Source: Bolinopsis microptera (Eukaryota; Ctenophora; Tentaculata; Lobata; Bolinopsidae). Taken from it: a stretch of 64,000 nucleotides of DNA. Positions 3,401 to 61,522 of the stretch are shown piece after piece. Every line of letters begins with the position of its first letter. The stretch's first letter is position 1. A model generated the notes under the pieces. The model was not told the DNA's origin, made no database searches, and saw only the letters and a program-made list of their open reading frames with translations. The stretch spans positions 4,836,001 to 4,900,000 of the forward strand of contig NC_087074.1 in the NCBI RefSeq assembly GCF_026151205.1, given 5' to 3'. The position numbers and the translations under genes are program-made.

Positions 3401-3526
3401 CACACCTTCATGTAAATTAGTTTCAACAAAGCAATAAAACTGAAAATCAATACCTTTAAATATCAGTTGTTGATTAAGAAATTCGGTAAAATTAGTTTGA
3501 AAACCATCGATGTTGTGATAATACAA
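449..3526 (-). CDS. LINE ORF2: endonuclease-reverse transcriptase
   Basis: About 1025 residues or slightly more. The N-terminal third is an APE-type endonuclease: LGDFNFN near residue 142 and SNHRPL near residue 209 are the family's late catalytic motifs. The reverse transcriptase follows, with NYRPISILPVFSKIFEKLI, the GFRSGRST and YSKAFDTI blocks, GVPQGSVLGPLLF and the catalytic FADD near residue 712. The C-terminal part has the usual LINE tail (SYGITVWGS, then RIWNAVN). It would nick genomic DNA and copy its own RNA by target-primed reverse transcription in the nucleus. The frame stays open upstream to about 3565 without a clear ATG, so the true start is uncertain; translation may depend on reinitiation after ORF1, which ends about 75-110 bases upstream. 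No stop or frameshift is seen, so it may be functional. Confidence 0.93.
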   Translation of the reverse strand: MYYHNIDGFQTNFTEFLNQQLIFKGIDFQFYCFVETNLHEGVPHDYNIPGFSAEHLFAIEGKRKGSGISIFFRDNCSFKRSRDLDIRNSYFECLGGSFVTDVGKCFLIVLYRFNKSANDEFFTKLNNIIEKYAHGPCIVLGDFNFNCFNHETDSSVSRYCELFFNFGMSPLVSRKTHTFRGETTLIDQIWSNYFTEDTSTYVIDNSISNHRPLVLSVPLNLNSYADNNSGGDNGTKPFLLHNVSPENYEKFGVEFNSYFANFTNLIANNPDSVNSAVSAQSCFTDFFTTFKQLYFEHIVEEIDLNSSKRNHYFKPWITIAIAKSCMTKNTLYNAWVNSRGSPNETIAMTVYKSYRAKLRDIIRFRKSCYFRDKFTRASGNIKKCWQIINEIRCKTNKLTFPDYISENGQLIRERRVICTHFNKYFTSIADKLNEKKYDDNSNPVLVPDFRDFLHSPVTNTIFLKPIVFSEISEIIRKLNSNKSSDFSPRILKLFNYQFSTILTHLFNNCMNNSLFPSELKIAKVLPLFKSGDRNSVSNYRPISILPVFSKIFEKLIQSRLISFFTKENVLHEGQFGFRSGRSTIQALNTSICNILKSLDQKNHTLAIFIDYSKAFDTIKHSILLQKLYHYGIRGKANELLASYLTGRSQYVHFDQDTFSDCLPITCGVPQGSVLGPLLFILYINDVTSCQCTCDNTAVCTSNCADRNLFVLFADDCNTFITSETLGGAFEKANALLCNLKSYIDANYLHINLTKSKFMLFRTPRSKPNFEADNYTLTYDGYNLQRVKCIKFLGVFIEESLNWSDHINYIGKKVSKVNGVLYQLRKTAPKMLRIAIFNALVQSHLSYGITVWGSSTATNKLNKLFINQKKALRNVFGIRRVNKHQQGNTKRVFSENKVLTVYGLYHKFILTEGFQVVHAGGYPTLLRKHFQTSAVNDKRLICPRVYYKDNMHNMLYAVPRIWNAVNNSSYLTRNITTISSFKNNIKQFILMYQSNGSNNTWEPSNLDAQTFFVTASKNPESYSVTR

Positions 3527-3637
3527 ATTAGTGTGTTTACTAGTAAAGGAACGTGCATTTTATAACGATTTTACAGTGTCAGGTTTTGGTGTAATACAAG
3601 CACAGTCGTTCAAAATAGCCGAAGCAACTGAAAAAGT

Positions 3638-10390: not shown

Positions 10391-11146
10391 AACCATGGTT
10401 TTTGATATTTTGAGCAAGTTAATTTTGTTGGCATGTCGGCAAAATTTGCATGGCAATAGCTAAAACATAGCCGCACAAGATGATATAAAAATAAAACAAA
10501 TCGCTCTGTTTTTACGCAGGTAAAAATCCAAAAAGTGGTAAAAATGTGCCCTTTTTTGCTTAAAGTTTGAACGATTTTTTGCAGTTGTATTAAATCAACC
10601 CAACAATAGTCACATCGTGTTTGACTAAAATTTTCCTTTCCGAGAAGTACCCACTTCATATACTTTATAGAAGTTTGAATATTGTCACTCCGCAAGCGTT
10701 TTTGCCTAATTTTCGACGCGCACTACGCGCAAAAGCATTTAGTTGTTATCAATGGGCACCCGCGCGTTCATCATAAATTTCAAACAGCCATATATAAACA
10801 ACTCATAATAACTCAGCGAGATTATGTCCGTTCTAGCTCATATTTTCACACCAAATAGAAAACAATGTGATCGTATTGCTGACATAACATGAATATAATT
10901 ACTTTATAGGCCTAAGAGTTATAGACTGTCAAAGTTTAAAACGCGCATTGGAATAGCACGTGACTTATAAGGCTATATTTATATTTCTTAACATATTCTC
11001 GATCCTTACACATCATACTATTGTGTCCAATTAATAGTAAGGTCTCTAAACTCATAGCAGAAAACACGTCTTTTTGCCCCAAAGAGCCTCTACTACTAGT
11101 TTTGAGTTTACGAACATAGATCAATAAAGATTTGGCGGAATGACAG

Positions 11147-11639: not shown

Positions 11640-11850
11640 ATTGCTCTTACTAATTCGCTCACCCAAAAATTTCACGTGACTTTGGTTTATATGGTTTTGC
11701 AGCCGTACAAAACGGTTTTACATAAACCCTAATCCCAACCCTAACCCTAACCATAACCCCGAAGCTAACCATAACCCTTACCACAACCCTAACCCTAACC
11801 CGAGCCCTAAACAATCGAATTCATGGTTTACTAGCCTGTCACTTACTGGG
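11640..11850 (-). repeat. Dispersed element with telomere-like CCCTAA repeats
   Basis: Degenerate CCCTAA/CCATAA units (about 11715-11815) sit between unique flanks: GTACAAAACGGTTTTACAT on one side and CAATCGAATTCATGGTTTAC on the other. The same flanks and array recur in inverted orientation at 58065-58262. It is therefore part of a mobile or duplicated element rather than a simple interstitial telomere. Confidence 0.7.
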
Positions 11851-20030: not shown

Positions 20031-21838
20031 GATTCGAAAGATTATTTCTGTCTGTATAATGTATGTCTGTATGTATGTCTGTATGTACGACCGCCCAAGT
20101 ACAAATTAGATGAGAAATGGGAAATTGCATAGTTGACATTATAGTATTAGTAACGAGGATTGTTAGACGTACTCACGTACGTGCACGTACAAAGATTTGT
20201 GAGCGCCATTTTGATCGGTTTTGTGGTAATTACGTTGTGTTAAGTGCAAGCTACATTTCATCGGCTGTATCTTCGGTTGTGAAATGTGACGGATATTTTT
20301 TGATGCGATAAAAACTGACTACCAAAGAATACTACTAGCTTCATCCCTGTGACCACGGGCTTTCTTCAAATTCTAGTCAATATTATAATTCGAAAGATTA
20401 TTTCTGTGGCTGTAGGACTATTGAGCGGAGGACTGTTGAGCGTAGGACTGTAGGTCGGTGAAGGTCGGAAGTAGGACTGTAGAGCGGTGTCAAATCGCCA
20501 GGGTAGGACTCTAGAGCGGCCGCCCACAACATGAGGACTTTAGAGCGGTACGATCCTAGAATGAGGACTGTAGAGCGGTGGACTGTTGAGCGGTGGACTG
20601 TAGGCCGGTGAAGGTCGGAAGTAGGACTGTAGAGCGGCCCTCCCTTATAGATCCCATAACATGAGGACTCTAGAGCGGTACCCTCATATAACATGAGGAC
20701 TCTAGAGCGGTACCCTCCTATAACACGAGGACTCTATAGCGGTTGAAATTAGAAGATTGGACACTCAACGAAGCTAAGTTATACATTGTAACTCGTGATT
20801 GATTATGGTCAACTTTTACTTTATTAAAGAGTCATGGAGTTAATGGACATTTTCATTTACTTATTTTAAATATTTCATTACTAGTGTAACTTAATTTAAG
20901 ATTATTGGTCGGTCTCAACGTCTTCCAAATGATTGAAATATTCCCCTGCTACTCAAAAATGTAAAACGTGTCTTCGGTATTTTAGTGAATTGTTCGTATC
21001 AATGTAATTTCGCTAAGCAGAGTACCGATCAAGTTCGTGCAGATCATTTAGGAATGAGGATCGCATCGTGTGACGCTTTAGCGCCTACTAAGGATATCTC
21101 ATGTTCATCAATCTGGTGACGGGACTGATTCAGATCAGATCCCATCGCAGTGCGATATCTTGTTAGGATTTCGAAGGTATGGTATAAATATCACGGAGTA
21201 TGAAAATGTCAAAAATTCTATACAGAGTCCTCATGTTATAGGAGGGTACCGCTCTAGAGTCCTCATGTTATAGGAGGGTACCGCTCTAGAGTCCTCATGT
21301 TAAGGGATCTATAAGGGAGGGCCGCTCTACAGTCCTACTTCCGACCTTCACCGGCCTACAGTCCACCGCTCAACAGTCCACCGCTCTACAGTCCTCTTTC
21401 TAGGATCGTACCGCTCTAAAGTCCTCATGTTGTGGGCGGCCGCTCTAGAGTCCTACCCTGGCGATTTGACACCGCTCTACAGTCCTACTTCCGACCTTCA
21501 CCGACCTTCAGTCCTACGCTCAACAGTCCTCCGCTCAATAGTCCTGCTCCCTATTTCTGTCTGTCTGTCTGTATGAATGTACGACCGCCCACGTGCAAAT
21601 TAGGTAAACAAATAGAAGTTGCATTATGCATAGTAACCATGGTAACAGTGTTGAACGCGCACGTGCAAGTGCCAAGATTTTTGAGCGAAATTTTGATCGG
21701 TTTTGTGGTAATTGTGTCTGCAGTGTGAGTTGCATTTTAATCAGCTGTATATTCGGCTGTGAATGATACTTTTTTATGGTATAAAAAATGGCTACCAAAG
21801 AATATACTACTAGTTTCATCCTCTACTACGGGCTTTCT
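20031..21838 (+). repeat. Two direct repeats of about 300-360 bp, second interrupted by an insertion
   Basis: The unit at 20031-20390 recurs as 20391-20407 plus 21561-21838. Shared blocks include ATTATTTCTGT, GTACGACCGCCCA, GATCGGTTTTGTGGTAATT and CTACCAAAGAATA. The second unit is split by the element at 20408-21551. Confidence 0.8.
20408..21551. mobile_element. Foldback / Mutator-like non-autonomous element
   Basis: 1144 bases flanked by an exact 9-bp direct repeat, TATTTCTGT (20399-20407 and 21552-21560). The ends are inverted repeats more than 300 bases long (about 20410-20735 and 21225-21548). Each arm is built of imperfect units of AGGACTxTAGAGCGG, separated by variable GGTACCCTC/ATAACATG spacers. 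The roughly 490-base centre has no ORF. Long terminal inverted repeats with 9-bp target duplications are characteristic of Mutator-like elements. With no transposase it must move in trans. Confidence 0.85.
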
Positions 21839-29109: not shown

Positions 29110-31116
29110 TCAATGTCCTTGTACATTGCACCCACTAGCTGTACTGCACTTCATCTGGAGTGCTCTTTTCCCATTCTTTTTGAGAGTAGGTTTGACAGTA
29201 TTTTCGAAAGATTTCATGAATTGTTCGTCATCTTTATCGCAGTCACATGTTGCCGTTCGGAGAAACTGCAAATTTCCGGAGTAGACACAAGACGGGTAGT
29301 CTTTAGGAAATTTTGTTTGGGAAAACATGTAGTTTCTTTCGTTGAGTGCTAAAGCTAGTCCAGATAGAAGATGGTCATGGATATGACAATGAAAGAACCA
29401 TACGCCAGGGTTATCAGATTGGATCCTCAAAGCAACTGCTCCACCAGGAGGCAAGATAACAGTATCCTTTAGGACGCCTCGTTTTTCCCTTTTCATCAGT
29501 TCATCTATTGGCTGCGACAAATCTGTGTTTAGATCAAGTAATGGACATAATTCCCTGTCACAATTTTTAACTTTTCTTAAAGCGATATCAAGAACTTCGT
29601 AATGATGTCCATGCAGATGCATTGGGTGGTTCATAAAGGACCTGTTTCTAATCACAATGGTGACGGATTTATTGTGTTGTAAGTCTAATATATTCATATT
29701 AGTATTTGGATTTTTGTCGTTTTCCGTTGATCTCTTGATAACTGCTTTTTTTGGGATAAGATTTTGTGTATATGTCTTGTTATCAATGGACAAAAAGAAA
29801 TAGCCTATAATGTCGACCGTGTGATATTCATATTCATCCGATAATTTCCATTTTATTTTGGGTTCAAGTTCTGTGACAGGATGGCATTTGTAATCCTCTG
29901 GAGGTTTGTAAAATTTACAATTGAGGATACTCCACGCTTTTATCATGAATGCTTTCATGTCTTTGTTAGGGGGGACACCTGTGCTGAAAGGAATTGAATC
30001 ATCTCTCCTTATTCGCAGGACACTCGCCATTCCTTTCTTCTGGTTCTTTGAAGGAGTCATTGCCCTTATCCACGTCACATCTGTGTCAGTATCAATGTTG
30101 AAAGTGATATTAACATCATATCTCTCCGCAATCCCGATCTGCAACACTTCAGTTTTATAAGGCTTCACTGGGTACCCATCAGTAGCAACCACCGTCAAAT
30201 TGTATCCGTCGATACTAAAGAAGTAGGGATTTTTAAATCCACCATTGATGATTCGAAATGTGTGTTCGCCATTCTTCACTTTGAATTCCGGGTCATGCTC
30301 GCCGTTCAAGACACCGCCTGCCCATCCTGGTGTGGTAATCGAATTGCCTTCTATACTGTCCTCGTCTGGTGACATGTCATGAAAGTCCCAACCATTATAG
30401 TTTGGATAAAGGTCAACGTAAAAAAGAATAGTTTCAGTTCCAAACTGGTATTCAGATGTAGGTATGCGATACGGTGCATGTTCGTCATGGACGATAAGTG
30501 GCCCGCGGATGAAGTCTTGACCGGAAGCTTCCACTTCATTCCCATGTGTGTGATACCAATAGGTACCGGGCTGTTCGTTCACCTTCCAATCGTACAGGAA
30601 CGAGTTTCCAGGGGATATGGCACACTGCGTAAGACCTACCACTCCATCAAAAACTTGAGCGTTTTTCATGTTAAATCCGTGCCAGTGAACGGATAATTGA
30701 GCGCCTACGATTCCGTTAGTTGCTCTGACTTTAAGTTGGTCACCGTTTCTTACGTGAATAGCTGGCCCTTTTATGTTTCCATTGATCGTGTTTACTGTGT
30801 AGGTTCGGTTACCGATCTTCTCAGTAATCTGCTTGGTATGAAAGACCCATTGGTTATTCACAAGAGGTTGGATCAGAGTAGGGTTTGGCCCAGTAGGTTT
30901 TTCATCTTCTGCGATGACGTTTATCAGCCTTGCCCTTAGTGATACAACAACCAAGCCGATGGCAAGGATTATAACAATAATGGCATTTAAAACGACTAAC
31001 ATTCGCTTTACTGTGCACATTGCACGGTTATCGATGGAATTAGATGAAGGAGCCATAACGGCAACATTGGGAGGGTTTTCTTGTTTTGACGCCATGTCAT
31101 CCAGCTCGATCGACAT
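29110..31116 (-). CDS. Membrane-anchored laccase-like multicopper oxidase
   Basis: 668 residues, intronless. A cytosolic N-terminus of about 38 residues precedes one membrane segment (about 39-60), so the enzyme should be a type II membrane protein with an extracellular catalytic part. All four copper-binding motifs are present: HWHG at 144-147, WYHTH at 187-191, HPMHLHGH at 497-504 and HCHIHDH at 576-582. The residue at the axial position of the type 1 copper is Leu (HLLSGL), not Met. Multicopper oxidases couple one-electron oxidation of phenols, amines or metals such as iron(II) to reduction of oxygen to water. Three-cupredoxin length and motif spacing fit laccases, not six-domain ceruloplasmin/hephaestin. 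The substrate cannot be told from sequence. Cys-rich C-terminal tail (TCDCD, KCSTASGC). Confidence 0.93.
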   Translation of the reverse strand: MSIELDDMASKQENPPNVAVMAPSSNSIDNRAMCTVKRMLVVLNAIIVIILAIGLVVVSLRARLINVIAEDEKPTGPNPTLIQPLVNNQWVFHTKQITEKIGNRTYTVNTINGNIKGPAIHVRNGDQLKVRATNGIVGAQLSVHWHGFNMKNAQVFDGVVGLTQCAISPGNSFLYDWKVNEQPGTYWYHTHGNEVEASGQDFIRGPLIVHDEHAPYRIPTSEYQFGTETILFYVDLYPNYNGWDFHDMSPDEDSIEGNSITTPGWAGGVLNGEHDPEFKVKNGEHTFRIINGGFKNPYFFSIDGYNLTVVATDGYPVKPYKTEVLQIGIAERYDVNITFNIDTDTDVTWIRAMTPSKNQKKGMASVLRIRRDDSIPFSTGVPPNKDMKAFMIKAWSILNCKFYKPPEDYKCHPVTELEPKIKWKLSDEYEYHTVDIIGYFFLSIDNKTYTQNLIPKKAVIKRSTENDKNPNTNMNILDLQHNKSVTIVIRNRSFMNHPMHLHGHHYEVLDIALRKVKNCDRELCPLLDLNTDLSQPIDELMKREKRGVLKDTVILPPGGAVALRIQSDNPGVWFFHCHIHDHLLSGLALALNERNYMFSQTKFPKDYPSCVYSGNLQFLRTATCDCDKDDEQFMKSFENTVKPTLKKNGKRALQMKCSTASGCNVQGH

Positions 31117-37056: not shown

Positions 37057-40000
37057 ATGTCCGCTATGTTAGCTCACCCCTTCCCAGGATTTTTTGATGC
37101 TTCTAAACCAGGTAAGAGTATGGATTGTTAGAAACACTGACCGCCAACACGTGCCACTCCTTATATGGAAGTCACGTGACATGTTGGTATTTTCAATCAA
37201 AATCGTGTTTTTGTCCAAATTTGGGCTTTCAACACAAATGAAAAAAACACACATTTCGGATGATACAGTAATGACTATTCAAGTGACTGATCAGTGTCTA
37301 CATAATACTATAGTAGTGAAAATTGCATTAAAAGAACACCTTGACCACAGATCCACGTCCGACTGAGACGAAGTTGAAGGATGAGTATTTGACTTGTGAA
37401 GTGTGCAAACACACCTTCGATTTCAGTAAATATGCTCCTCACCAGCTTCCTTGTGGAGACACTGCCTGCCTCGACTGCCTCAGACAGTTTGGTGAGCGAA
37501 TAACTCTTTTATACTTGGGTACTGTGAACTTAACATGGGTTATTGTAAGTTATTAGTTATTGGTAAAGCGAACTGTACTTAGCGTAAAGTTTAGAGTCGG
37601 CGATTTTCCACTCACAACAGTTCGTCGGCATGTATTTAGGCGACAAATCAAAGGATTAATATAGATAAAAATGGTTTTTGTTACTGAATGACCATTGATC
37701 AACCAATATCGGGATATGATTCGAAACCTTCCGATTTCAGCTGGTAGGAAAGGCAGGGCGGAGGAGATGCACTGTCCGGTATGTGACCGTCTGACAGTTG
37801 TGCCGGGGGGTCACGTGTGTTGCTTCACACCTAATGCTGGTACTCTCAAGATACTGGAGGTTTTCAAGGTAATACGTCACTCAAATTACGTCACTCAAAT
37901 TACGTCACTCAAATTACGTCATTCAAATTAGCTTAAAAATGTAGTGTAGACGTGTTAATTAAAAAAATAATAGTCTTTCCTGAGAGAATTAAGCAGTTGA
38001 GCTATTTAAAACACATTGTTTAATAAGCATTAAGCATCTTGCTAAATAAAGGGTGTTCATTGTTCAGCTGGTGGAAGCATACAAAAAGGACTTTGTGCCG
38101 TGCATAGGATGTGACGAGAAGGGGGAAGCTCGCTGTTTGGAGTGTCAGGTTAGTCAAACTCTCTCCACTGATCATCGCATGTTTAATCGGACTTTTATTT
38201 TGGCTGCTCTATGTTTGTTATTTCAAGTTTGTAATTTGCTAGCCTCGCTGATTGGAAAATTAAAAAACGCATGAATATTGAATAATTGTAGAAACGAATA
38301 TATCACATGATACTGTTAATGTGCTAAACATTATTAAAATACAACATATTATTAACGACATGATTTAATACAACCCATCATTAATGACAGATTTATGAAT
38401 AATACAATTTCTGTCCATTCTTATAAACAAAACAAATCAGTCCAATATTTTAAGAAAATAACCGTACAACTTGACAGGAAAATTACTGTGACGAGCACGC
38501 TAATTTCCACTCGATAGTGGCTGCAACTAAGCATCACACTGTTGTAAAGTTCATGGATATACTAGCGGAACCTCAGAAGATTCTCCGCGCAAATGGAGCT
38601 CAGGTTTAAATGTTCTTAAAATAATCTTCAGCGACTGATTATAGAAATTTATTGAAAAACTATGCAAAACTCGTCGCTAATTAAGATTAGTGAAAATATA
38701 ATTATATGATTAAATGAAAATTTGCACCCAGTTTTGTAGTAAGCACCACAACTCTGCTCTGGAGGCAGTGTGTACCACGTGCAATGCTCTGTGCTGTCTC
38801 GTCTGCGCTATCACCGATCACAAGGGACACAGTGTCAAGGAAATTGGAGACACTATGAACAATATCCACGAAAAGGTATGAATAAATTGACTGTTACTTA
38901 ATTAGTTAATCAGTTGATTTGTTAATTACCTTATTGCTACAGCGAGATTATCAACAATATCGCTGGGAATAATTCAACATGATAATTTAATATAACGGGA
39001 ATATTTCAGATGAGGCCAATAATGAAAAAAGTGGAACAAAATACTTACAACATTAAACAAAACTTGAAAATAGGAGGCAAGTTATTTCTTTCTTTTAATG
39101 ATCTTTTTTTGAAATTACCTTTAAAATGTGCGAATTTTAGCAGTGATAATAATGTTTATGATTTTCATATTATTTGTAAGGCGAATATTCGTTTCACTCC
39201 TAACCACTGTTACAGAGGACGTGGATAAAGAAATGAACATCATGTTCCAGAGATGCAAGAGAAATCTGAACATCTCCTTTATGGGAGTTGTGAGGGGCTC
39301 GAGGGACCGACAGAACGAACTGTTCGCCGACGTGGACAAGGTGCTGAATGAGAATGTTAAACTTCTAGAGCAACAGGTAATAAGGATATTTTGTGGGTTT
39401 GGATGCAAATCTTGATACAACTGCACCGATTGAAAATACACTGCTTCCTCATTTCTGTTAACCTTGTTTGTTTAAAATTGACTTAATCGTTTGGAAAATA
39501 TGCAGGTTCACGACATTGAGGATGAGATAAACTTTACAATAAGGGGTTCCGATATGATAACAGATATATTCGAGGAATACTCCCCAGCCCAGATGGCCGG
39601 TATTGGTGGTCTGGTATGGAACATTTCTTATTCCTTTGTTAATGTATCTATTGCGCAATTGTGACATTTTGCAGTCAGACTGCAGTCAGACGGATTAAAA
39701 TTGGTAGACATTTGTAAATATTTTTCACTAAATAATTTACTTAACTTAGGTTCAAAAACTGATAGACGAAATTCAAACGATTCCAGAAGATTTGCCGATC
39801 GAACCATTAACTACTAAGCGTGTCACGTTCGAGTCAAAAGCAGAGAAACAATTTTATGCAGCTGGAAAAAACTTCGGCAATCTGAAGATTTCAGAAATCA
39901 AGATGTCACTGATGCCAAAGGATCCGAAAGAAATCGATTTTGAATCAGTAAGTTTGACTTAAGTAATTCCCATAAAGTTTATAATCAACACTCAAATTGA

Positions 40001-40281
40001 AGAATGAACAAGTACTAACCTAACGATGACAGTTAGTATTAAAGGGGTGATCCTTTAACAATCAATTAAACTTTAAACAAACATGAAACAATGTAATTAC
40101 CCCAGGATGAGGAGGAGGACCTGCTCCCTATTAACAATGTAATTACCCCAGGATGAGGAGGAGGACCTGCTCCCTATTAACAATGTAATAACCCCAGGAT
40201 GAGGAGGAGGACCTGCTCCCTATTGACAACTCTGAGCTCACAAAGATAGTCAAGGAACAAATGGCTGCCGTTGCCACGTAG
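37057..40281 (+). CDS. TRIM-like RING / B-box / coiled-coil protein (11 exons)
   Basis: Predicted exons: 37057-37111, 37351-37491, 37741-37868, 38068-38148, 38478-38603, 38732-38875, 39010-39076, 39216-39376, 39506-39613, 39750-39947, 40198-40281. All codon phases agree, giving 430 residues. The RING spans about 34-80 (CEVC, LPCGDTACLDC, CPVC); Asp55 sits where the zinc-binding His is usual. A B-box 1-like segment (CIGCDEKGEARCLECQ, then YCDEHANFH) and a B-box 2 (FCSKHH, CTTC, CCLVC, DHKGH) follow, then a helical, probably coiled-coil region. No SPRY, NHL or other C-terminal domain is seen. The role would be E3 ubiquitin ligase or scaffold. Intron 7 (39077-39215) starts GC instead of GT (GAG|GCAAGT). 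The last acceptor is present in three tandem copies (see 40086-40205), so the C-terminus may vary. Confidence 0.85.
37869..37930 (+). repeat. 14-bp tandem repeat at a donor site
   Basis: Four units of ACGTCACTCAAATT begin 6 bases after the exon 3 donor of the RING/B-box gene. Each unit holds a CRE-like ACGTCA. Confidence 0.8.
40086..40205 (+). repeat. 46-bp tandem repeat that triplicates a 3' splice site
   Basis: The unit joins intron end (AACAATGTAATTACCCCAG) and exon start (GATGAGGAGGAGGACCTG). Exons could begin at 40106, 40152 or 40198. The first two hit an in-frame TGA after 16 codons; only the third continues for 27 codons to the TAG at 40279-40281. All three give the same first nine residues, DEEEDLLPI. 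Confidence 0.85.
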
Positions 40282-40533
40282 GCCACGCTGGTGGAATCAG
40301 TTCTCTGATAGTTACTCTTCTCCGGCTGCACTTCTGGCCAAATTAAAGATGAAGGCCTTAGTTTATTAAGCGGGACTTAAGAGACAAAACTATAGCTGAC
40401 TCCTGGAAAATTGGATTGTTATTTTGAGCTATGCGGCATTTTCAATATGAAATTTATAGAGAAAATTATTTCACCACCTTATATCATTTCAGATGAGTAA
40501 ATTTATAAATGCATAGCACAGTTTTCTCGACAG

Positions 40534-42516
40534 TTATTTCTGAGTTTTTGGTCTATAATCCAACCATCGCTTCACTCCTGGTTCTTCTATTACTCCTCTG
40601 TATTGAGCTGCTAGTTTTGGAAAGTTCGAGAGTAAGTCAGCTCTGCCGTATTCAGGGTTCTGTTTGAGTTCTAAAAAACTCATTATCACTATATCACCCC
40701 ATGTCATCTGTAAATAATATGATTTAATTTATCGTCGATACTTTCAAGTTTTAGTAAAAATATCGTTTTTAGTGTTTCACAAAGTTGATTCATAAAGTAA
40801 ATTAAATTGTTGGAAAATAATATAAAATAAAAAGCATCAACTCGTACGATTAAACACGAACAATTAATACAAACGTTTAGTTGGACTGTTTACCACTTGC
40901 AACACACCATGGTTAACTCGACCATGGTTACCACATGGTTACCACATGGTTACCACATGGTTACCACATGGTTACCACATGGTTAACTCGACCTACCCTG
41001 TCACCTAGGATAAAAGGTCCAGACTGGGCAGACAACATCTTCTCCAATTTAGAGAGATACACTGGAAAATAGCTCTCGTATGCCCCCTCCTTCTTCTTCG
41101 CCTAGCAATGTATAAAGGTATAAGATTATATGAGGAGACCATATTTTACTTAAGTATGGAGCGTCTGTAATGATCGCTCTGAAATTCAACAGCAAAACAG
41201 TGTTACTATAGATATAAGGGAAGTAATATCAATGTATCGAACTGTCGATCGACATTTATTTAGCCTCTGTGAGTGTGAAATCGAAAACCACGAACATGAC
41301 AACCAAGAAAGTCGTTCACAAATGTCAGGCGATCACAGAATGTCAGCTGATCGTATTACCTTGATGTTTTGATCCTTTTCTTTAACGACCTCATCATATC
41401 TTGCGATCAGGTCGTAAAGCGTCTCAATGAACATGTTCACATAAAGTGTATCCTCTGCTGTTCTGCCTTTGTAGTCTGGGGGCAAGAGTAAAGTTCAAAC
41501 TGTAAATTCTTGTCGTGAATGTTTGTTTACCTTCGTAATGTAATGTTTAGTATTCTGATAACTCTCTAATTACCCGGTTGAATGATGGGGAGTTTTAGTG
41601 AAAATATAACGATAAGACTCTGGTAACTTACCGGTTAAACTAGCGACGTAACGGGTAATAGCAAGACTCTGGCACACTACCCGGTTTCCATCCAATACTA
41701 AACTTGGTAAGCAACCACCTGGTGATCGTTTTAAAGCGGCGGCAAACTCGGGAGTGCCTGCTGCCAGCCTCGTGTCTTTGAATTCTATTCCTGTGAAAAC
41801 AAATAGGGTTCGTGTTGAGATAAGTGTTTACTGTAAAAAATTAGGATTCTTGTAGGGTTTACTAGGTGATCCTAAGATAGCAGTCACGATTTAAAAAAGG
41901 ATGTTTGGCTAATAACAATCGAGCAGTCGGAGCTGGGGGGCACTCTGTTGAAGTACCAAGTGGGGGCGAGAAAAGCTAGAAATAGTTTATTTTTCCCCAG
42001 GTTGCATGGAATATGATAAAATATGCCACAATAGATCAAGAAATTGAGCGACCATCCACGGTGACCGACAACTAAGAACTCTCAGTCCGGGCTCCCACAG
42101 GTATCACATCACATGGCCCAATCAGTGACGTATCATTTGTGATGTGATCCATATTCTAACAATCCCCCCAGCCGGGTGACTGAACCCAGTTGAACCTAAT
42201 TCTCACGCAGTTAACAGGCACCCAATCAGCTTAATTGGGTGACCAATCAGCTAAAATCCCAAAACAACAACTGAACCCAGGTCATATCATAACTGCACCG
42301 AAATCGGAAATACGACAAATTCAGTTGTCCGGTAGTTGTCTGGATAGGGTTCACATGACAGTTTAGTAAGTAGAAAAGCGGCCGCATTTCTTGTTATACC
42401 TCGACACGATATCAAGACAGTCCCTATACTGATTGCTTACCGGAGAGGTTAAATAATATCCTTATGGGTTCTGCGTACCCCCGACTGTTGTAATACACTA
42501 GTTCGTAACTTGACAT
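40534..42516 (-). CDS. Sigma-class glutathione S-transferase (5 exons)
   Basis: Predicted exons, 5' to 3' on the minus strand: 42441-42516, 41632-41790, 41360-41475, 40997-41101, 40534-40707. Phases join exactly to give 209 residues, the normal GST length. The N-terminal thioredoxin-like fold starts MSSYELVYYNSRGYAEPIRI; Tyr8 aligns with the catalytic tyrosine of sigma GSTs. CLPSLVLDG (cis-Pro loop) and CQSLAITRYVA (glutathione-binding QS) follow. The C-terminal helical domain has YFPVYLSKLEKML and GDRMTWGDIVIM, and it ends with RPKTQK. Sigma GSTs conjugate glutathione to electrophiles such as lipid peroxidation products, and some are prostaglandin D synthases. Cytosolic. Intron 4 begins in an 11-bp minisatellite (40914-40990). 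Confidence 0.92.
40914..40990 (-). repeat. 11-bp minisatellite at a GST donor site
   Basis: About six units of CATGTGGTAAC (minus strand) begin about 14 bases inside GST intron 4. Every unit contains GGTAAC, a donor-like sequence. The composite also creates several near-X-box GTTAACCATG palindromes. Confidence 0.8.
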
Positions 42517-44508
42517 CCCAATCTGCTGAATTTACTTATAACTTATTGTATTCAATTGCTTGTGTGTAAAGATTGTGAATTAATCTTTTAATGAAGTAGC
42601 AAAATGAGGATATCATGTACAAGTAGTGCCTTATACAGAGCTATTAATTATCAATTAATCGCAGGTTAATAGCAAATATAAAATATTTTCATGTGTCCAA
42701 TATACATAATGAAAAACCAGTTGTTAAACGTAACTTTTACAACCAGTTGTTAAACGTAACTTTAGAAAAAGGTAATAATTCAGGGATGGTCACTTTTATC
42801 GTCTTCAAAGGTCTGGAAGAAAACATCCATACTAAGAGGGCTGAATACTTCTAGCTTTCTAGGTCTGAAATGTTGCTCAAAATGCATGCATCCAGAATAG
42901 TAAATTTAGGGCAGAAATGGCAGTTCCATTTCGTAAATGTGACGAAATAAGGGTGCAGATAAACAGTACTCACACTGTTATGTTCGTTGGACCATTGAAT
43001 GAATAGTATGATTTACAACATGGTTGTTACATACAATTTTTGAAACCACAGAAGTTTGTCTTACTTACATATTATACTCACTATTATAGGAGCAGCAAAT
43101 TTTGCAGCAGCTCGGTAACAATGGTATCATTTCACTTAAACATTTACGTACCTAGTGGTTTCAGTTTCAAGGGTCAGCCTAACCATCATTATTATTTCTG
43201 CTCCTGGAATCTGAATTCAGAAAACATGGGATAATCAAGACTCTGACTAAAAGTCAAAGTGCCCTCTTCTCCTCATGCGCATTTAATGAGAAGGAACGAT
43301 TTATTATTATTGTGTGGAAATACCTTTAATAATGTATTCTTAACCTTTTCAGATAACAAACCTGTTTAGTCGTTGACTACTGATGCTATAAAGATTAACT
43401 ATTGGCCTATTTTTACTTAACAGACTTAAAAGACTGCAGAATTCTCGGAAAAACATTTTAAATACCTATTTCATGCTGCAGAATTTACAGAAATCTAATG
43501 TTTAGTAAGCCATTTCCCTGATAACATAACCTCTCCAAGGTGCTCATTTAGAAGCTCCCTTTTCCACCAGGAGACTCATTTCAAGCTACCACAAAGCAGT
43601 CTTCTCTGATGGAAATGTCACAAGCATTATACTCAGCTGTGACACGGACAATCAAATGTGTTGTTGTCGAGGAGGATTATATTAAAAGTTAAGATATTAA
43701 TCTCAATAATTTTATGATACCGAGACAATGGTGTTTACTGCAAGCACCATCTAGTCAGTATTGGTGGGGGAGGTGAGTAGCTACCTGATTAATTGTCTAG
43801 TGGCTCTATTGTGCTGAGACAGAGATCTCCTTTCATACTCTATCACGTGACACTTCGTTCTGTGCCGCCTCAAACCACCGAAATTGTGAACTTTGACCGC
43901 ATTATTGTATTTATATTGCCATATTACTCAATCAATCAGTATTTAACCACACAGCAATTTGTTCGAACACGTTATTTGATTGTACCTGCGGTTACACCGA
44001 CCATCTGCAGCACCCTCAAATCGATCCGATCGATCTTTTTCAACTGACCGTGCCCCTCGTTTTGTTGTCAGACCATTAATATATAAAAAGTACAGTACAA
44101 TATACGAGACGATCTATTAAATACAGCAATATTAATCTCTTGGTTCAACTCTGAGCATGTGCCGGTGTCTGAGAACGTATTCAGAATTGATAACCAGTTA
44201 ATGTATTAACTTTCTGACTGGGCAGCACCTTATTAATGAGAGGGATCGAGACCTTTAATATCTTAATTAATAGACCCCAACTAAAGTGCAGCACAAATAT
44301 CGAGATGGGCTTCTACCCCTCATTTCTACAAACTAAACTTACGGTGCGTTCTCCATTCACCTCTACTGATCTGTTATAATTCATTTATAGTTTATTATAA
44401 CGGACTTTATGAATTTCAAGTCAATCAGTCTCTGTGATCATGTGCAAACTTCTGTTAGAATACTCACAAATACCTCAATTTTACAGAATACTATTCACGT
44501 TAAATCTG
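42517..44508. other. Intergenic between divergent GST and homeobox genes
   Basis: The two genes are transcribed away from this interval, so both promoters should lie in it. I see no firm TATA box near either start. A 19-bp direct repeat AACCAGTTGTTAAACGTAAC occurs twice at about 42717 and 42741. ORFs at 43040-43234 and 43793-44047 show no domains. Confidence 0.45.
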
Positions 44509-46192
44509 ATGAACGAAATGATGGATGATGAATCGTACAAGGCGAGCACCGAGGTGTCGTCCCTAATTTCTCTCGGCTCAGGAGGAGGAGCCCAGGGGAA
44601 GATGCCTGATCCAAGAGGGGCAGGGTCCAGTTCTCACGACCAGATAATACCTCGACCTCTTCAGTACTCTGTTGAGGCTTTGCTGGCCAAGAATGATCCC
44701 AGAATTGGTATGTATTCTTTAGCTTCAAATTCTTCTTTTGTGGTTTGATATCTTTTCGTGGAGCTTGGATCAAAATAATGTTTCGCTGTTTGAGATGATG
44801 TTAAAACATCAGGTACCTTGTTAGCACAGGAAAGGTGCTTGTTTGAGGAGCTGTGTCACAGAAGGAGAAGGTCTCGTCACAGAACCCGCTTTACCATGAT
44901 ACAGCTGGATGAGCTGGAGAAGGTTCGCATTTTCGCGCCATATTTACTTGTTGCTTATTGTATTAGAGATTTGAGTTAATATTGTGAGGACATCTGCATA
45001 TGGATCTGATAGGTCTATACTATAAGACTATATGAGCCAATAGACTGCAGATATATTATATATTTTCTTTGAACAAAAGTGCCAAAAGTACCTTTTTTTA
45101 AGTACTTTTGAATATACTTAAAGCTTTGAAAGGCGTTTTTAAAATGTCATGTTTACGTACCAATGACAAATAATAATTCCAGGTATTCAGTCGAACCCAT
45201 TATCCAGACTTGGTGCTACGAGAGGAATTAGCTGGCCGTATTGGACTGAGCGAGAGCTGTGTACAGGTAAGATCCATGTTACTCTGTTTTATCATTTATA
45301 GGCGAGCACTTACTGTTATTTAGGTGACTTATTAATTTATCAGGCAGGATTCATTTTAATTACCATTATGTTACTCTGTTTCATCATTTATAGGATCACC
45401 AATCATTAGGATTATTGCTTTGTAGTGGAAAGCAACAATGTAATCTTAGAAATTCTACATGCTTCAATAAATTTGAGAAATGCTGGCTGCAACGTCCCAA
45501 GATATAATATCCCTTCAAACTAAAATCAAGTTGTACCAATAGCATCAGTTCTGCCATACAACACTAAAAGCTGGGCTCCCCTAGTTAAACAAACAAAGTG
45601 CCGGATAAAGTTAATAGATTCAGATGAACCACGTTCATTTATGTGACGTTCAACATCAGAGTAGAAATAGTAGTCAACATCAGAGTTATTTATTTAACTC
45701 ATCAATTTTCGACCTTAATTCTAGAGATTTAGGCTTCACAATGAGGAAGTAATAAGGAAGTAATGTTGAAGACCTCCTTAAACTCGAGGATTTGTCTTGT
45801 AAAGGAACAAGAGGCGAGCACTTGCTGTTATTTAGGTTACTTATTAATTTAACAGGCGGGATTCATTTTAACATCATTATGTTTCCTTAACGTTATAGCA
45901 GAGAAAGTGTAATAACAATATGATAAAAAATCCTCAGATCTGGTTCCAGAACCGTCGTGCACGGTGGAGGAAAGCAGTCCGGAACGGGACAGAACCAACA
46001 GCAGCTCTACTCCACTCGTGGATACCCCGGTGTCTGCCCTACCTGTACGCTCACGGGCACGCTACCTTGGTGGCAGGTTTCAAGGAGGGTGAGATTGCTA
46101 GTCCTGCTCGACAGGAGAGGGTGGGGGAGAGCAGTGGGGAGCGGGACAGAGCGCAGGAAGATCTTACTTCCACTCAGACTCCCGAAGAATGA
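44509..46192 (+). CDS. PRD-class (paired-like, Q50) homeobox transcription factor (4 exons)
   Basis: Predicted exons: 44509-44707, 44813-44922, 45183-45266, 45938-46192; phases agree, giving 215 residues. An in-frame ATG at 44434 would add 25. Exon 1 has YSVEALLA, an eh1/octapeptide-like repressor motif as in Rax, Hbn or Uncx. The homeodomain begins [20 protein letters not shown] and ends [11 protein letters not shown], with Gln at position 50 and Asn at 51. Introns fall at homeodomain positions 18/19 and 46/47; the latter is typical of the PRD class. The 73-residue tail is Ser/Glu-rich with no OAR motif. It should bind palindromic TAAT sites as a dimer and probably represses transcription. 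I cannot assign it to a family with confidence; it is divergent. Intron 3 contains an imperfect 80-bp direct repeat (45301-45380 and 45812-45885). Confidence 0.9.
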
Positions 46193-47226
46193 TGGGAACA
46201 AGAGAGCTGACTAAACAGCGGACTGATTTGCCTTGAGACGTGAGCGAATGATGCGGATATTTAGTTTAGATATGCGGATATTTACATTAGTTAATGTGAA
46301 TCAATTTGTCGTGGACGGTATTACAACAATGTAACCGTCATGTTTTTGAGATGACATGGTTGAAACCTGTCAGGACGAATCATTGTTGAAAGTTTTTCAT
46401 ACCAAAATAGGTTAAATACGTTTCCTCTTTCAACTTTTCAGGTTATTATTGTACTTTCTCAATTTCCTAAATTTTTTGATTAATTTGATCGTGATCATTG
46501 TTAATATAAATAATAAAAAAACAGCATTTTTGACCACTTCAAGAAGTATTTTTTGATAAGTGTACTTGAACAGAGTCATAATTGCTTTCTCGTATCAAGA
46601 AGCTGGTTTTAATACGCACGAGGTTTTTATACGAATTTTGAAATTATAATCTTTTTCAAACTACGTACAAACAAAAATAATTTCGAACTTACAAAATTAA
46701 ATATCATCTAATTCAAAATTGAATTCTTTCCGATTTAAATTCCTTCTTGATCATATTGCGTTTAAAGAAAAATGTCCCTGTTCAATAATAATCAAAGATA
46801 TCTTAACCCCAAGCGAGTAACTCTCATTGTTAACTGTAACATAATAAACCAAAATTCATAGTTCATAATTCCGAGAGTACAGCTTCAGTATCAAACTGAT
46901 GACCGTTTTAGACTTAGAAATGACGTTGGTAGTTGATGATCCGAGGCAGAATTAGCGGTAGAGATTATCAGCAACTTGTAGCATTACATCTTTGAAGAGG
47001 TTACCTGAGAAAAATTATCTCGTGAGATATCTGAGATGATACTTAATCATGCTAGTGTGGATACTATTGGACGGGGAGAACCATATTGTTTTGGCACGTG
47101 ACAGTGGTTCTGGGTCACGTGACATATTACCATAGCAACCAGTGATTCTGGGGTTTGAATTTTTATTGGTAAATACTAGAAGCTGATTGGTTAATCACTG
47201 TCACATTTCAGAATACCTTGTTGTGT
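46193..47226. other. Interval between convergent homeobox and LURP-like genes
   Basis: The two genes converge here, so it should contain both 3' UTRs. Two TCACGTGAC-like E-boxes near 47095-47120 and ATTACCATAGCAAC (47126-47139, X-box-like) lie close together. No ORF. Confidence 0.45.
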
Positions 47227-50200
47227 TCAAAAGTTTCTACCTGTGATGTAAGGGCGCTCCCTTTCAGTTGTAGTTTCCTCTTCCATTATGATACCTATTG
47301 CAATCATCAACGCTGTGTCTATGTACGGTTCAACCTGTTAGAAGACTTTACATAAGGGAAAATTTAGATATTCAATCTTTAAGCATCCTTTATCACTCAA
47401 TTGAAATTTTAGTACTATTAGCGTTAATTATCATCTAATTACAATGCCTTACTTCCAAGTAGAAGCTGTCCGTCCCGAAGGTCCAGTGGGTAAGATATTC
47501 CAGATCCTTCTTTATTCTAGCCCACTGCTTATCCTCATGTATATTCATTATCTGACAATGTGTATAATGTATAATGTATATTAAAGTGTTAATTATCTGA
47601 CAATGTGTCTAATGTATATTAAAGTTAAAGTGTTAATTATCTGTTTACACAAGTCTTAGTATTGAACTAAAACAGCAATTTGACAACCACTAAATAGTAC
47701 CAGACCGGCCACTCTTCGATGGGTAATATCATTTTTTACTATAAGAGCTGATGTAATCTCACCTGAAAACCGTCCTCGATAGATTTGCCCATTATCTTGA
47801 GAAGAGGTTTTACTCCGTCCAGCTCAGGTTGCTCAAACTCGCGCGGGTAGGGTGGCAAATGTACGAACCTAAACAGTTCACTATTAACGGGTAGGGTGGC
47901 AATTGTACGAACCTGAACAGTTCACTATTAGCGGGTAGGGTGGCAAATGTACGAACCTAAACAGTTCACTATTAGCAGGTAGGGTGGCAAATGTACGAAC
48001 CTAAACAGTTCACTATTAGCAGGTAGGGTGGCAAATGTACGAACCTAAACAGTTCAATATTAGCGGGTAGGGTGGCAAATGTACGAACCTAAACAGTTCA
48101 ATATTAACGGGTAGGGTGGCAAATGTACGAACCTAAACAGTTCACTATTAGCGGGTAGGGTGGCAAATGTACGAACCTAAACAGTTCACTATTAGAGTAT
48201 TAGCGGGTAGGGTGGCAAATGTACGAACCTAAACAGTTCACTATTAGCGGGTAGGGTGTGGAACCTTTTAGATCAACATCATCACTATTCACTTGTCATT
48301 AGATTTTTAAACAGTTTCGAATCGACCTTACATTTACGGAAGTGTCTGGCTTAACGAATGTGTTATACATTTTGGAGAGTTAATGTCGCAAAGAACTAAA
48401 GAATCGCCAGATTCGCTGGTCATTGCATGTAATGCGGGTCTCTGAGCTGATCATTTCCACCATCCTCCCTTGGCACCTCCCCAGTCCCGTCGAGGAAGGA
48501 GGCTACTAACATTATTAGATACTGTAGATAGAGATGCAGGTGTACAGTTAGAAGATCTCCGTACTGCCATGTGCGATCGAGAAGTTTGGAGGAAGATAGT
48601 AAACGGGATTTCGATCGAGGATCGCCCAAAGTAAAGTAAGTAATAAAGCTTAATTTCAGTGCTAAATTTTGTAGCAGATATCAATATTAGAGGTTGTATT
48701 ATTTTCTTTAGTTTGTGAGTGAATCAAAATTGACGTGTTGTTCTTTCCAAGGCAAGATTGAAAAATCATGCTGGTACAACAACATAAATTCCTTGAACTA
48801 ATTATAGTCATAAAATTGAATTAATTTCATAAAATTGAATGCTATTGATATGAAAGATGCGGTCGTGATTTAAAATTGCTGAAAACCATCAAATTATAAA
48901 AGTTCCCTATTACACAACCTTTATCATGAAGTACCCGAGCTTCTCAAATAATCTGACCGAATGCCTTCAAGCAGTTTTAAATGACTGACTATAGTGCCAT
49001 ATTTAACATTCTTTAACATCATAGCTTTAAAACTGTCTTCAGAAAAGGTGGGGTCCTGTTTGGCAGCCAAACTCTTACTAATAAATACATCACTCAGAGT
49101 CCAGAGTCTGCAAGAATTACTCATTCTTCCTGTATTTGACAGAGGGTGGTAAACAGTGCCCAGGTGCGTCTTAATCACGTGACTCATATCCAGACATTGG
49201 GACACCAGATCAGTTTGTTTCTCCTGCAGTGTCTCTAGATCTGCCTCAAACTGTTTCTCCTCCAGGGTTTCTATCTGAGCTGTGAACTTTTGCTCAAAAT
49301 ACTCGAACACTTTCATATCAACTCGGTTGTGGAATGTCAGTAACTTCAGTGTATTCTCTGATACAACAGGTTTGATAGGCTCAGCAGAATCGTCTAAACT
49401 TCTAGTCATCTTCTTTAAATAAACCACATCATCTATCCTCCAACCCAGGTAATGCTTCAGAAGGAGAAGAGATTTATCAAACTCGTTAGTGATCATTATA
49501 AGATCAAACTCCCTATCTAGATATCTAATAAAGGATACAATTAGGACGTCTGGATTTAGACCCTTATTCTTTTGCAGGAAGTGAGTAAACCCGAGATCAA
49601 ATGACATGGGGTTTATAAAGGAATTACAAGTAAGGGTATCGTTGGGTAGTAGAGCAAGGGACTGCTGTAAAACTTCGTCCACAGAATCACTCTTTATTTG
49701 GAATTTCTTTTTCAGTCTATCTTGATGATTATAGAAGAAATAGTTGGAGAGGAACTGTTGATTAGGGTTCCTGAGGATTGTAAAGTAGAATGTTTGTTCC
49801 TTGGGAAGGAGCTTGTGAATTATCCAGGGTCGGTAGTAGTCCCAAGCTCCTGATCCTCTGTGGTGCTGACACAAGATGTCATAATCCTGGCCTGGTGCCA
49901 ACTTTTGAGGGGGCTTGTCGTTGAAGAACTGGTGCTCGTAGGGGGTCAGCAAGAAATTAAGGTTCCGTCTGATACCAAACTGATAAAGTATCGTCACAAG
50001 AGAAGAGGTCCCACATTTGTGAGTTTTGAGGAACATGAGCTTGTCTCGTTTCTGTATAAAGCTGGTGATATTCTTCAGTTCGAAATAGAACTGAGGCTGG
50101 TCAGTAGTCCGTGATTCAGTAGACATTACCACCTGATCATTTGGCAGATACCCTTTCTGTTGCCCGTACAGGATTATCATCATCACCACTACACTCACAA

Positions 50201-53200
50201 AACACAACAAACAGAATACAGCCAGTTTCCTCATTCTCTCGGCTCAGTTTATAAAGCTTAGCAAACCCGACCTGACTACGTAGCTGTTATAAAAAGTAAA
50301 ACGCTCGAAATAGTTGAGCGTTTTATATCTCAGCAACGCCAATAAGCAAAACGTGTACAACGAGAAACTTGAAAAGGGGAGGAACTTGCGAACCAGAATC
50401 AGGTGGTCTAATAGACCCTAAACCGATTAACACAATGTTATAAACTGGTTAACCAAGTTAGCAAGGTGTTATTAGCTAGCATATCATATAACGTTTTACG
50501 GTGCTGTGTTTTGTAGATTGTACTATTTTGGCTGTAGTGGAATATACCTTCATTGTTTGCTAGGTTAATAGTCATTTTATCAACGAAGGGCGGACTCTCC
50601 TGTAACAGTCAACTCTCTTTTGTTTGTACATTAGTCGGGGACAATGAGACCTCAAACAAATAGCTCGTGTCAATACAGTGAAACAAATGAAGGTGGGGAA
50701 CTGTCCATTGGGAATATTTCTACTCTTTTCTGGTCTGGAGTTATCCGAAAACTGTAGTTTTTGGAAAAGTTTTTACTTCAGATTAATATATGTACATAGA
50801 TTTTTACGTTCAAAGTATGACAAATTATGACACTGAAAAGTATCAATTGTCACCAAGAAAACTTTTAACATGGTATCAGTTTGTTATGACACCTTGTAAG
50901 CTTGTATAGTGAAAACAGTTCCACGACAACTTACACGTGACAACTTACACGTGACAACTAACACGTGACAACTTACACGTGATAACTTACACGTGACGAC
51001 TTACACGTGACAACTTACACGTGACAACTTACACGTGACAACTTACACGTGACAACTTACACGTGACAACTAACACGGGACAGCTAACACGAGACAACTA
51101 ACACGTGACAACTTACACGTGACAACTAACACGTGACAAATAACACGTGACAACTAACACGTGACAACTTACACGTGACAACTTACACGTGACAACTTAC
51201 ACGTGACAACTTACACGTGACAACTTACACGTGACAACTAACACGTGACAACTAACACGTGACAACTAACACGTGACAACTAACACGTGACAACTAACAC
51301 GTGACAACTAACACGTGGCAACTTACACGTGACAACTAACACGTGGCAACTTACAGGTGACAACTAACACGTGACAACTAACACGTGGCAACTTACACGT
51401 GACAACTAACACGTGACAACTAACACGTGGCAACTTACACGTGACAACTTACACGTGACAACTTACACGTGACAACTTACACGTGACAACTTACACGTGA
51501 CAACTTATACGTGACAACTTACACGTGACAACTTACACGTGACAACTTACACGTGGCAACTGTTGCCGAAGATACTTTTCTTAACTGACACGACTGCTCT
51601 TCTTTCCGACAGATTGTGTCCTCCTAACACGTGCCATGAACTCTCTATGAAGTCATACCTGAGATAAGATTAATGGCATCTTTACGCGAGGAAAAAGAAA
51701 ATGAAATACAATCTCGTCAGTAGATCTAGTTCATACTTTCTCTTTAAATTTAATACTGAGTCCGGTACTGTATGAAAAGTGAACTTATCCGGTACCTGAG
51801 CCCCATGGTACTGTATTATAAGTTAATTCATCCGGTACCTGAGCCCCATGGTACTGTATTAAAAGTGAATTTATCCGGTACCTGAGCCCCATGGTAGGTT
51901 TCCCTTCTTGGTCTGTGAGAACTCTCTCCCTCTTCAGATCGTACAACTCAGCCTCCACCCGGAAGTGAAACTTGTTCCTCTTGTCCACTATGTTGAAGGT
52001 GGACTTGACATGCTTTGCGTTGAAAATATCGCGTCTTAATACTATCGTCTGCAATTTATAGGTAGTCTAATAGGTAATTAGGTAATTAGGTAATTAGGTA
52101 ATTAGGTAATTAGGTAATTAGGTAATTAGGTAATTCGGTAATTAGGTAATTAGGTAATTAGGTAATTAGGTAATTAGGTAATTAGCGTGTTACTATGTAG
52201 TTTACTGAGTATTCAGTTTGCTAAAATTTTAACTAAGCTGATGCTGACTTGTCCTCTTTGCTCTTGATTTTCCGTAAGTTGAAGTAAAATCAAAGGTCCT
52301 CGTGATTTTCCGTTGGTAAAATCAAAAGTCCTCTTTGCTCTTGATTCTCCGTAGGTGAAATCAAGAGTCCTCGTGATTTTCCGTTGGTAAAATGAAAAGT
52401 CCTCCTTGCTCTTGATTCTCCGTAGGTAAAATCAAGAGTCCTCGTAATTTTAGTCCATGAAGTGTAGGATAACTTGTATACTGTATAGTGATGCTTTAAC
52501 CTGACGAACAAACTCCCCCCATCCTTAATTTAATCGAAGATAAAATGTTAACCTTTCTTTTCTCGAAGATGTGCTCCTCCCCGATTACTGGTAAAATGTA
52601 CACTGCATCTGGGTCATACTCGCTCGCTTCCTCTTCCGTACTCTCCGCGTACTGCTCCGGCAGTTTGAACTCTTCTTCTTGCACTGAACCCCACCTCTTT
52701 AGCAGTGTACCTGGTACAGACGAGGGGTGGTCAGTTTATAAGTTCACTCCTTGCTTTTATTATTGTCTTGGAGAAAACAAGAAAAATGTAATTTGATTTT
52801 TAGTACAGATTTTATATCACGGCAGACATCAAGGTTTAAGTGTGGGTAGTGAATGGCCACCATGGCAACCAACATGCTCTACCTGTAAGAGGCAGTTTGC
52901 TGATGAGTCCTAAAGCGCGGCTCCTTGTCCCACTACTGTTAGATTTTTCTAGCTCCTCTTCCTCGCCGTTGCTGGAAGAAGAAGGGGTTTCCGTCGGGAT
53001 TGGGGGTTCTTGGGAAACTTCTTTTGATGAATCGCCATCTTTATCTGCCAAAAATTTACTCGATAAGATTTATAGGTAGTACATGTGCCCCATGATAATT
53101 GATAGGGTATACGAGAGACTACAGATACTTGAGATTTTGGATCGGTGTACAGTATTATATACCGGGTTTTCTATACCATGCACCTTTCCCTGAGAAAACC

Positions 53201-60934: not shown

Positions 60935-61522
60935 CACCCATTGCACCCATTAGGCACCCATCGCACCCATTGCACCCATTGCACCCATTGCACCCATTGC
61001 ACTCATTGCAACCATTGCACCCATTGCACCCATTGCACTTATTGCACCCATTGCACCCATTGCACCCATTGCACCCATTGCACCCATTGCACCCATTGCA
61101 CCTATTGCACCCATTGCACCCATTGCACCCATTGCACCCATTGCACCCATTGCACCCATTGCACCCATAAGGCACCCATTAGGCGCCCATTAGGCACCCA
61201 TTAGGCACCCATTAGGTACCCATTAGGCACCCATTAGGTACCCATTATGCGCCCATTAGGCACCCATTAGGCACCCATTAGGCACCCATTAGGCACCCAT
61301 TAGGCACCCATTAGGCACCCATTAGGCACCCATTAGGCACCCATTAGGCACCCATTAGGCACCCATTAGGCACCCATTAGGCACCCATTAGGCACCCATT
61401 AGGCACCCATTAGGCACCCATTAGGCACCCATTAGGCGCCCATTAGGCACCCATTAGGCACCCATTAGGCACCCATTAGGCACCCATTAGGCACCCATTA
61501 GGCACCCATTAGGCACCCATTG
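60935..61522. repeat. Composite 9-bp / 11-bp minisatellite
   Basis: The first part is (CACCCATTG)n, about 22 units to about 61168. It then switches to (CACCCATTAGG)n, about 31 units. The second unit is the first with two extra bases, so one array arose from the other. Open frames across the 9-bp part encode simple Cys-Thr-His or Gly-Cys-Asn repeats and are artefacts. Confidence 0.93.

Follow-up and report, generated by a model that had tools for sequence, protein, structure and literature searches.

In the window, a 64,000-nucleotide stretch of the ctenophore Bolinopsis microptera (NC_087074.1, positions 4,836,001 to 4,900,000), true exon-intron junctions are overlapped by five tandem arrays, as judged from the reading frame and from spliced relatives. 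These junction arrays are real, visually striking and have precedents; what is new is their scale, as a single array can hold as many as 45 tandem donors, one intron is affected at both its ends, five junctions are involved in two neighbouring genes, and there are more genes elsewhere. They are probably ordinary minisatellite expansions in a minisatellite-rich genome, in which the founding duplication happened to straddle an existing junction and was tolerated.

The first of the two genes lies on the forward strand at 37057-40281 and encodes a TRIM-like (RING/B-box) protein. It was rebuilt by hand as 11 exons, all in frame, separated by 10 introns of 128-329 bp; the product has 430 aa with a B-box at E 1.6e-7, and the last exon starts at 40198, within a 46-bp array. 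The second, a LURP-one-related (LOR) gene on the reverse strand at 47227-53044, is modelled with seven exons (53044-52883, 52710-52553, 52048-51882, 51658-51551, 47868-47763, 47551-47453 and 47334-47227), its 5' end lying outside the model. Also rebuilt by hand, it stays in frame down to the stop and matches the Pfam family LOR at E 1.1e-6. Exon 52048-51882 ends within a 43-bp array, exon 51658-51551 ends within a 14-bp array and exon 47868-47763 starts within a 44-bp array, while exon 47551-47453, which was exposed by the alignment of relatives and contributes 33 residues, has its acceptor within a fifth array. One LOR intron, of 3682 bp, has the 14-bp array at one end and the 44-bp array at the other. 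Nested in this intron is the single-exon frame of a galactose-3-O-sulfotransferase (48924-50243, E 4.1e-40), which is intronless and lies on the reverse strand like its host gene. A short piece within the LOR intron at about 48480-48634 on the forward strand is presumably the end of a LINE frame, and a reverse-transcriptase-like reading frame is found at 449-3559 on the reverse strand.

Arrays were delimited by TRF and exon borders rebuilt by hand. In the TRIM-like gene, the 46-bp array (40087-40229, forward strand, 3.1 copies) offers the acceptor CCCCAG|GATGAG three times, with exon starts at 40106, 40152 and 40198, only the last of which is flush with the exon. The other four arrays are on the reverse strand in the LOR gene. 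The 43-bp array (51764-51896, 3.1 copies) holds three donors CTCAG|GTACCGG, for which the final exon bases are 51882 (flush), 51839 and 51796. In the 14-bp array (50925-51561, 45.5 copies) the flush donor follows base 51551, and 40 units retain GTAAGT (24) or GTTAGT (16). The 44-bp array (47843-48258, 9.3 copies) has nine acceptors reading TTTAG or TTCAG|GTTCGT with the flush exon start at 47868, and the 45-bp array (47547-47643, 2.2 copies) has acceptors TTGTCAG|ATAAT with exon starts at 47551 (flush) and 47596. In each of the first four arrays the junction sits inside the terminal unit (acceptor 40198, donors 51882 and 51551, acceptor 47868). A sequence-only reading of the window had described these four, as units of 46 bp x3, 44 bp x9, 43 bp x3 and 14 bp x about 45 at splice sites of two unlinked genes. 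TRF, the frames and the relatives bear out the arrays; the genes, by contrast, are neighbours, four of the five arrays belong to the LOR gene, and the array at 47547-47643 was absent from that reading. Two further arrays lie close to junctions without spanning them: 4.1 copies of 14 bp at 37873-37930 (forward strand) begin 5 bp past the donor of exon 37741-37868, and 14.4 copies of 8 bp at 52071-52185 (reverse strand) end 22 bp upstream of acceptor 52048.

The window holds other repeats as well. Two 325-bp arms at 20414-20738 and 21221-21545, 98% complementary and 482 nt apart, each consist of short tandem repeats with units of 15 and 32 bp, giving two minisatellite blocks in inverted orientation that may be the ends of a mobile element. 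A telomere-like array of AACCCT (14.3 copies, 67% matches) is located at 11725-11810, in the interior of the chromosome, and an 11-bp array of 57.7 copies at 60935-61521 contains two types of unit, CACCCATTAGG and CACCCATTGCA, each confined to blocks of its own.

That the flush copies mark the authentic junctions is supported by the proteins of relatives. A homologous-protein search returned 13 relatives for LOR, 11 of them about 410 aa long, and three for TRIM, of which five and all three, respectively, were aligned. The contigs that carry the long proteins measure about 1.3-1.8 kb and are too short to contain these introns, which points to cDNA as their source. The LOR joints GLR|YDF and CHV|FVH or CNV|YVH are free of gaps in the four aligned relatives that reach them, P0013 ending earlier. 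The three TRIM relatives are 89, 98 and 57% identical to the TRIM-like protein; the joint FES|DEE is retained in P0014 and P0015, with three additional Glu directly after the joint in P0014, and the 57% identical P0016 has a similar tail. For both genes, the relatives' proteins display the flush product only and the coding sequence is unaltered.

These observations suggest how such arrays could be tolerated. When a duplicated segment includes the junction, the exon-flush copy would restore both the exon and its splice site, and the other copies would become intronic; growth of the array at any unit length would then leave the protein unchanged, provided that the exon-flush site is used. The unit length is not divisible by three in four of the five arrays. 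For Bolinopsis microptera itself we infer that the arrays are neutral and that splicing relies on the flush copy. The founding duplication may have arisen by slippage or microhomology. The start of the unit recurs past the last unit in three of the five window arrays (by 17, 5 and 4 bp, with no recurrence in the 46- and 45-bp arrays), which fits either route but is not proof of one. Short introns make the initial event easy to come by, as a duplication of 43-46 bp in an intron of about 150 bp meets a junction in about 40% of cases by geometry alone; predicted introns have a median of 185 bp (n=71). The same boundary-restoring rule applies at a coding end in a random sample of the genome: a 68-bp array of 6.9 copies (10581-11052 of the C1 block, C1:2010581-2011052) spans a stop codon and not a splice site, its unit comprising the final 62 bp of a leucine-rich-repeat frame, stop codon included, and 6 bp more.

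A possible though improbable alternative to such fortuitous placement is that splice junctions are preferred starting points of minisatellites, for example owing to microhomology of AAGT-like donor words and of pyrimidine or branch-point stretches, or to fragility linked to transcription. This predicts an excess of arrays at junctions, for which the window gives mixed evidence. In a curated set of 39 splice sites, drawn from the TRIM and LOR genes together with a homeobox gene, five lie within one of 25 merged arrays. All placement tests were post hoc, the window having been chosen for this very feature, and uniform placement of the merged arrays gives an expectation of 2.6 (P 0.20; P 0.26 by circular shift). 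When each array is allowed at most 32 exonic bp, the expectation falls to 0.42 and none of 3000 placements reaches five; when one seed unit per array is placed in collapsed introns, 1.8-2.2 of eight arrays are expected (P 0.005-0.025), or 1.2-1.3 without collapsing the introns (P about 0.001). The window therefore shows a local excess under two of three nulls, which argues for a preference and stems from the arrays at the two ends of the 3.7-kb LOR intron. In the LOR gene, arrays occupy 4 of 12 intron ends, a proportion in line with the repeat cover of 31% in the intron interior; in the TRIM gene the proportion is lower than the cover, with 1 of 20 junctions against 13%.

The random sample speaks against a preference. 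It comprises 240 kb in seven blocks from C1, C2, C4, C5, C6, C8 and C10, in which minisatellites (period of at least 8, score of at least 60) cover 4-41% of each block, and its junctions were predicted by a gene finder for which window and sample served as training data. With repeats masked, none of 116 predicted junctions lies in an array, compared with 14% of the intron interior; three other masking settings give 1 of 136, 2 of 134 and 1 of 132 junctions, compared with 13, 6 and 6%. Junctions are thus found in arrays less often than intron interiors are, although these counts are low estimates, since the gene finder recovers only three of the five known junction arrays of the window. A match of the gene finder at C6 37221 revealed no convincing exon on inspection by eye. 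Two sample arrays, 11 bp x47 at C6 30442-30925 and 21 bp x64 at C8 9526-10873, end 2 and 6 bp from predicted acceptors, and each of their units contains a branch-point-like CTAAC or TTAAC, as a preference for such stretches would have it. The exon behind the C6 array, 30928-31105, points the same way, as the reading frame of a relative (P0022) has a different repeat reaching the same exon, a comparison at the protein level only. Its gene, with PF09807 found on the relative P0019, is one that we take to be ELP6-like.

Junction arrays at other genes came to light through a search of the whole genome for the perfect donor CAGGTAAGT repeated three times with spacing. This triple gave 431 matches, and at least nine arrays on C1-C10 among the matches listed, with a reversed control of 0. 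Of two permuted words, the first gave 160 matches, which fall in 9 places on C1-C10, and none for its reversed control; the second gave 31 matches in 7 places, 5 of them on C1-C10, and 589 matches for its reversed control. The scatter of the reversed controls makes the control rate a rough one. From 304 kb, 7.1 arrays per permuted 9-mer are expected on C1-C10 (bootstrap 3.7-12.1), and outside arrays CAGGTAAGT itself occurs twice in 304 kb, against a mean of 1.68 for its permutations. The control word CAGGAATGT is a weak control, being acceptor-like and having one array that is a real acceptor array. Arrays of the donor word are not clearly commoner than those of permuted words, which is a further point against a preference for junctions.

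Reading the flanks of the nine perfect-donor arrays leads to a more favourable picture for this alternative, as four lie at well-supported exon ends or starts and two at probable ones, with three lacking a recognised exon. In a homeobox gene (L048, array at C10:4506848-4507556) there are about 20 tandem donors in 35-bp units, estimated from the span, and the homeodomain is complete only if splicing occurs across the array (57 of 57 positions, E 3.8e-23). A WD40 exon (L043; E 1e-4 and 0.0056) carries another array, and at a TAF2-like exon (L045; E 1.9e-14, and 5.7e-4 to TAF2 in the PDB) the array is flush with the acceptor. A further donor array separates a pair of exons that join in frame across the intron as LPK|YKS, with no Pfam family. 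The two probable cases, L042 and L047, have open frames and no Pfam family, and no exon was recognised in the flanks of L044, L046 and L049. An array of the control word CAGGAATGT (L060), read by chance, lies at the acceptor of an importin-7-like exon (PDB E 5.7e-21, no Pfam family). Exon sequence accounts for nearly the whole unit in L043 (27 of 29 bases) and in L048 (33 of 35), and in both the motif AAGT is common to the exon-side copy and the donor, as expected if microhomology at donor words started the duplication. The earlier claim that chance would not repeatedly centre minisatellites on splice sites is not supported: array density, the random sample and the word counts weigh against it, although the stricter window nulls do show a local excess.

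In L043, L048 and L045 every unit goes from GTAAGT to CAG. It is conceivable, if doubtful, that such units are self-erasing: whole units left over after splicing would have a donor at one end and an acceptor-like CAG at the other, so that a further, recursive round of splicing could excise them, with the same mRNA resulting from whichever copy was used first. If this were true, the units would act as ratchets which make the choice of splice site irrelevant and let introns grow without cost, and ratchet arrays could leave an intron behind once the old acceptor decays.

The fortuitous-duplication reading presupposes that the flush copy is used, and the strength of the sites does not by itself ensure this. 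The TRIM acceptors score 13.6, 13.0 and 12.6, with the flush copy lowest; the LOR acceptors score 2.5-3.5 except for the copy at 47912 with 7.1, the flush copy having 2.5; the 43-bp donors score 5.7 each and the 14-bp donors 4.1-5.9, with 5.9 for the flush donor. As the copies roughly equal the authentic sites in signal strength, the score does not single out the flush site. Use of a wrong copy would shorten the LOR product from 301 aa to 198 aa (five donors tested) or 209-231 aa (eight acceptors tested), and would give the TRIM-like protein a changed tail, with 419 instead of 430 aa (two acceptors). The extra sites could accordingly be used, and the arrays tune splicing or isoforms through a 419-aa C-terminal variant of the TRIM-like protein and down-regulation of LOR by premature stops. 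That the flush copy is not favoured by score (lowest in TRIM, 2.5 against 7.1 at 47912 in LOR) would suit this idea, but the proteins of relatives carry the flush product only, and we consider it quite unlikely.

Minisatellites that supply splice sites have been described before. Turri and co-workers reportedly found in 1995 that a minisatellite in the human interferon-inducible gene 6-16 provides several splice donors; it is said to lie over an exon-intron boundary with one donor per unit, at a single locus and in few copies. The ctenophore arrays resemble it in overlapping a true exon-intron junction with a splice site in each unit, but differ in having about 20-45 copies, in involving acceptors as well as donors and in affecting several junctions of one gene. 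In searches of the open-licence literature, nothing was found on splice-junction minisatellites as a genome-wide feature or in ctenophores.

Related cases have been linked to the birth of introns, and the sequence-only reading had suggested that the arrays could be intermediates in a known model, in which introns are created when a segment containing AGGT is duplicated in tandem. As it had stated, AG|GT stands at the junction of two units, those of 43 and 44 bp (two of its four, two of all five arrays), and the almost wholly exon-derived units of the WD40 and homeobox arrays would also suit such an origin. Its frequency is similar at ordinary introns of the two genes, where AG precedes 11 of 16 curated donors and GT follows 6 of 17 curated acceptors by hand count. 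The model needs both splice sites in copies of the unit, whereas in none of the five arrays does the opposite splice site of the intron resemble the unit (shuffle fractions 1.0, 0.19, 0.25, 0.11 and 0.69), and the homeobox acceptor lies about 70 bp beyond its array and not within it. Since the opposite intron end is unlike the unit in every case, AGGT-driven intron birth is not supported, and intron creation is a very unlikely account of the arrays. The unaltered coding sequence of relatives also speaks against it, though taken alone it would fit intron gain too. Close paralogues were sought as a guide to intron age, and only distant ones turned up (best E 1.1e-6).

The published cases of intron gain differ from the arrays here. 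In potato, a new intron and a new piece of exon arose in the RdRp gene when the end of an intron was duplicated in tandem along with the start of an exon (PMC4974935). The 46-, 44- and 45-bp units likewise carry a 3' splice site and the start of an exon, but here 2-9 copies lie inside an old-looking intron, and the proteins of relatives show no added exon. Two fission yeast genes contain 24-nt tandem repeats with AGGC proto-splice sites (PMC3629103), which the potato paper terms AGGT (PMC4974935). Multi-copy short repeats with splice-like words across an intron are common to both systems; in fission yeast, however, the intron itself consists of the repeats and represents a gain (PMC3629103), whereas here the repeats occupy one end of the intron and the other end is unrelated. 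The Rogers model of AGGT duplication and vertebrate ATP2A1 are described in the potato paper as well (PMC4974935), and the AG|GT of the 43- and 44-bp units recalls them, but in that model both splice sites are in unit copies, which is not so here.

An artefact of assembly, to which tandem arrays are prone, is extremely improbable, as the copies within the five arrays differ (TRF matches of 90-97%) and arrays of this kind recur at numerous independent loci.

Where repeats are as dense and introns as short as here, even a striking concentration of junction arrays within a single window does not oblige one to regard junctions as hot spots. Rows of between 3 and 45 almost identical splice sites in functioning genes amount to a natural version of a lab-built experiment, and such rows ask whether the spliceosome chooses by position, taking the exon-flush site, by strength, or by re-splicing. 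They also constitute a route by which minisatellites can enter the borders of genes without breaking their proteins.
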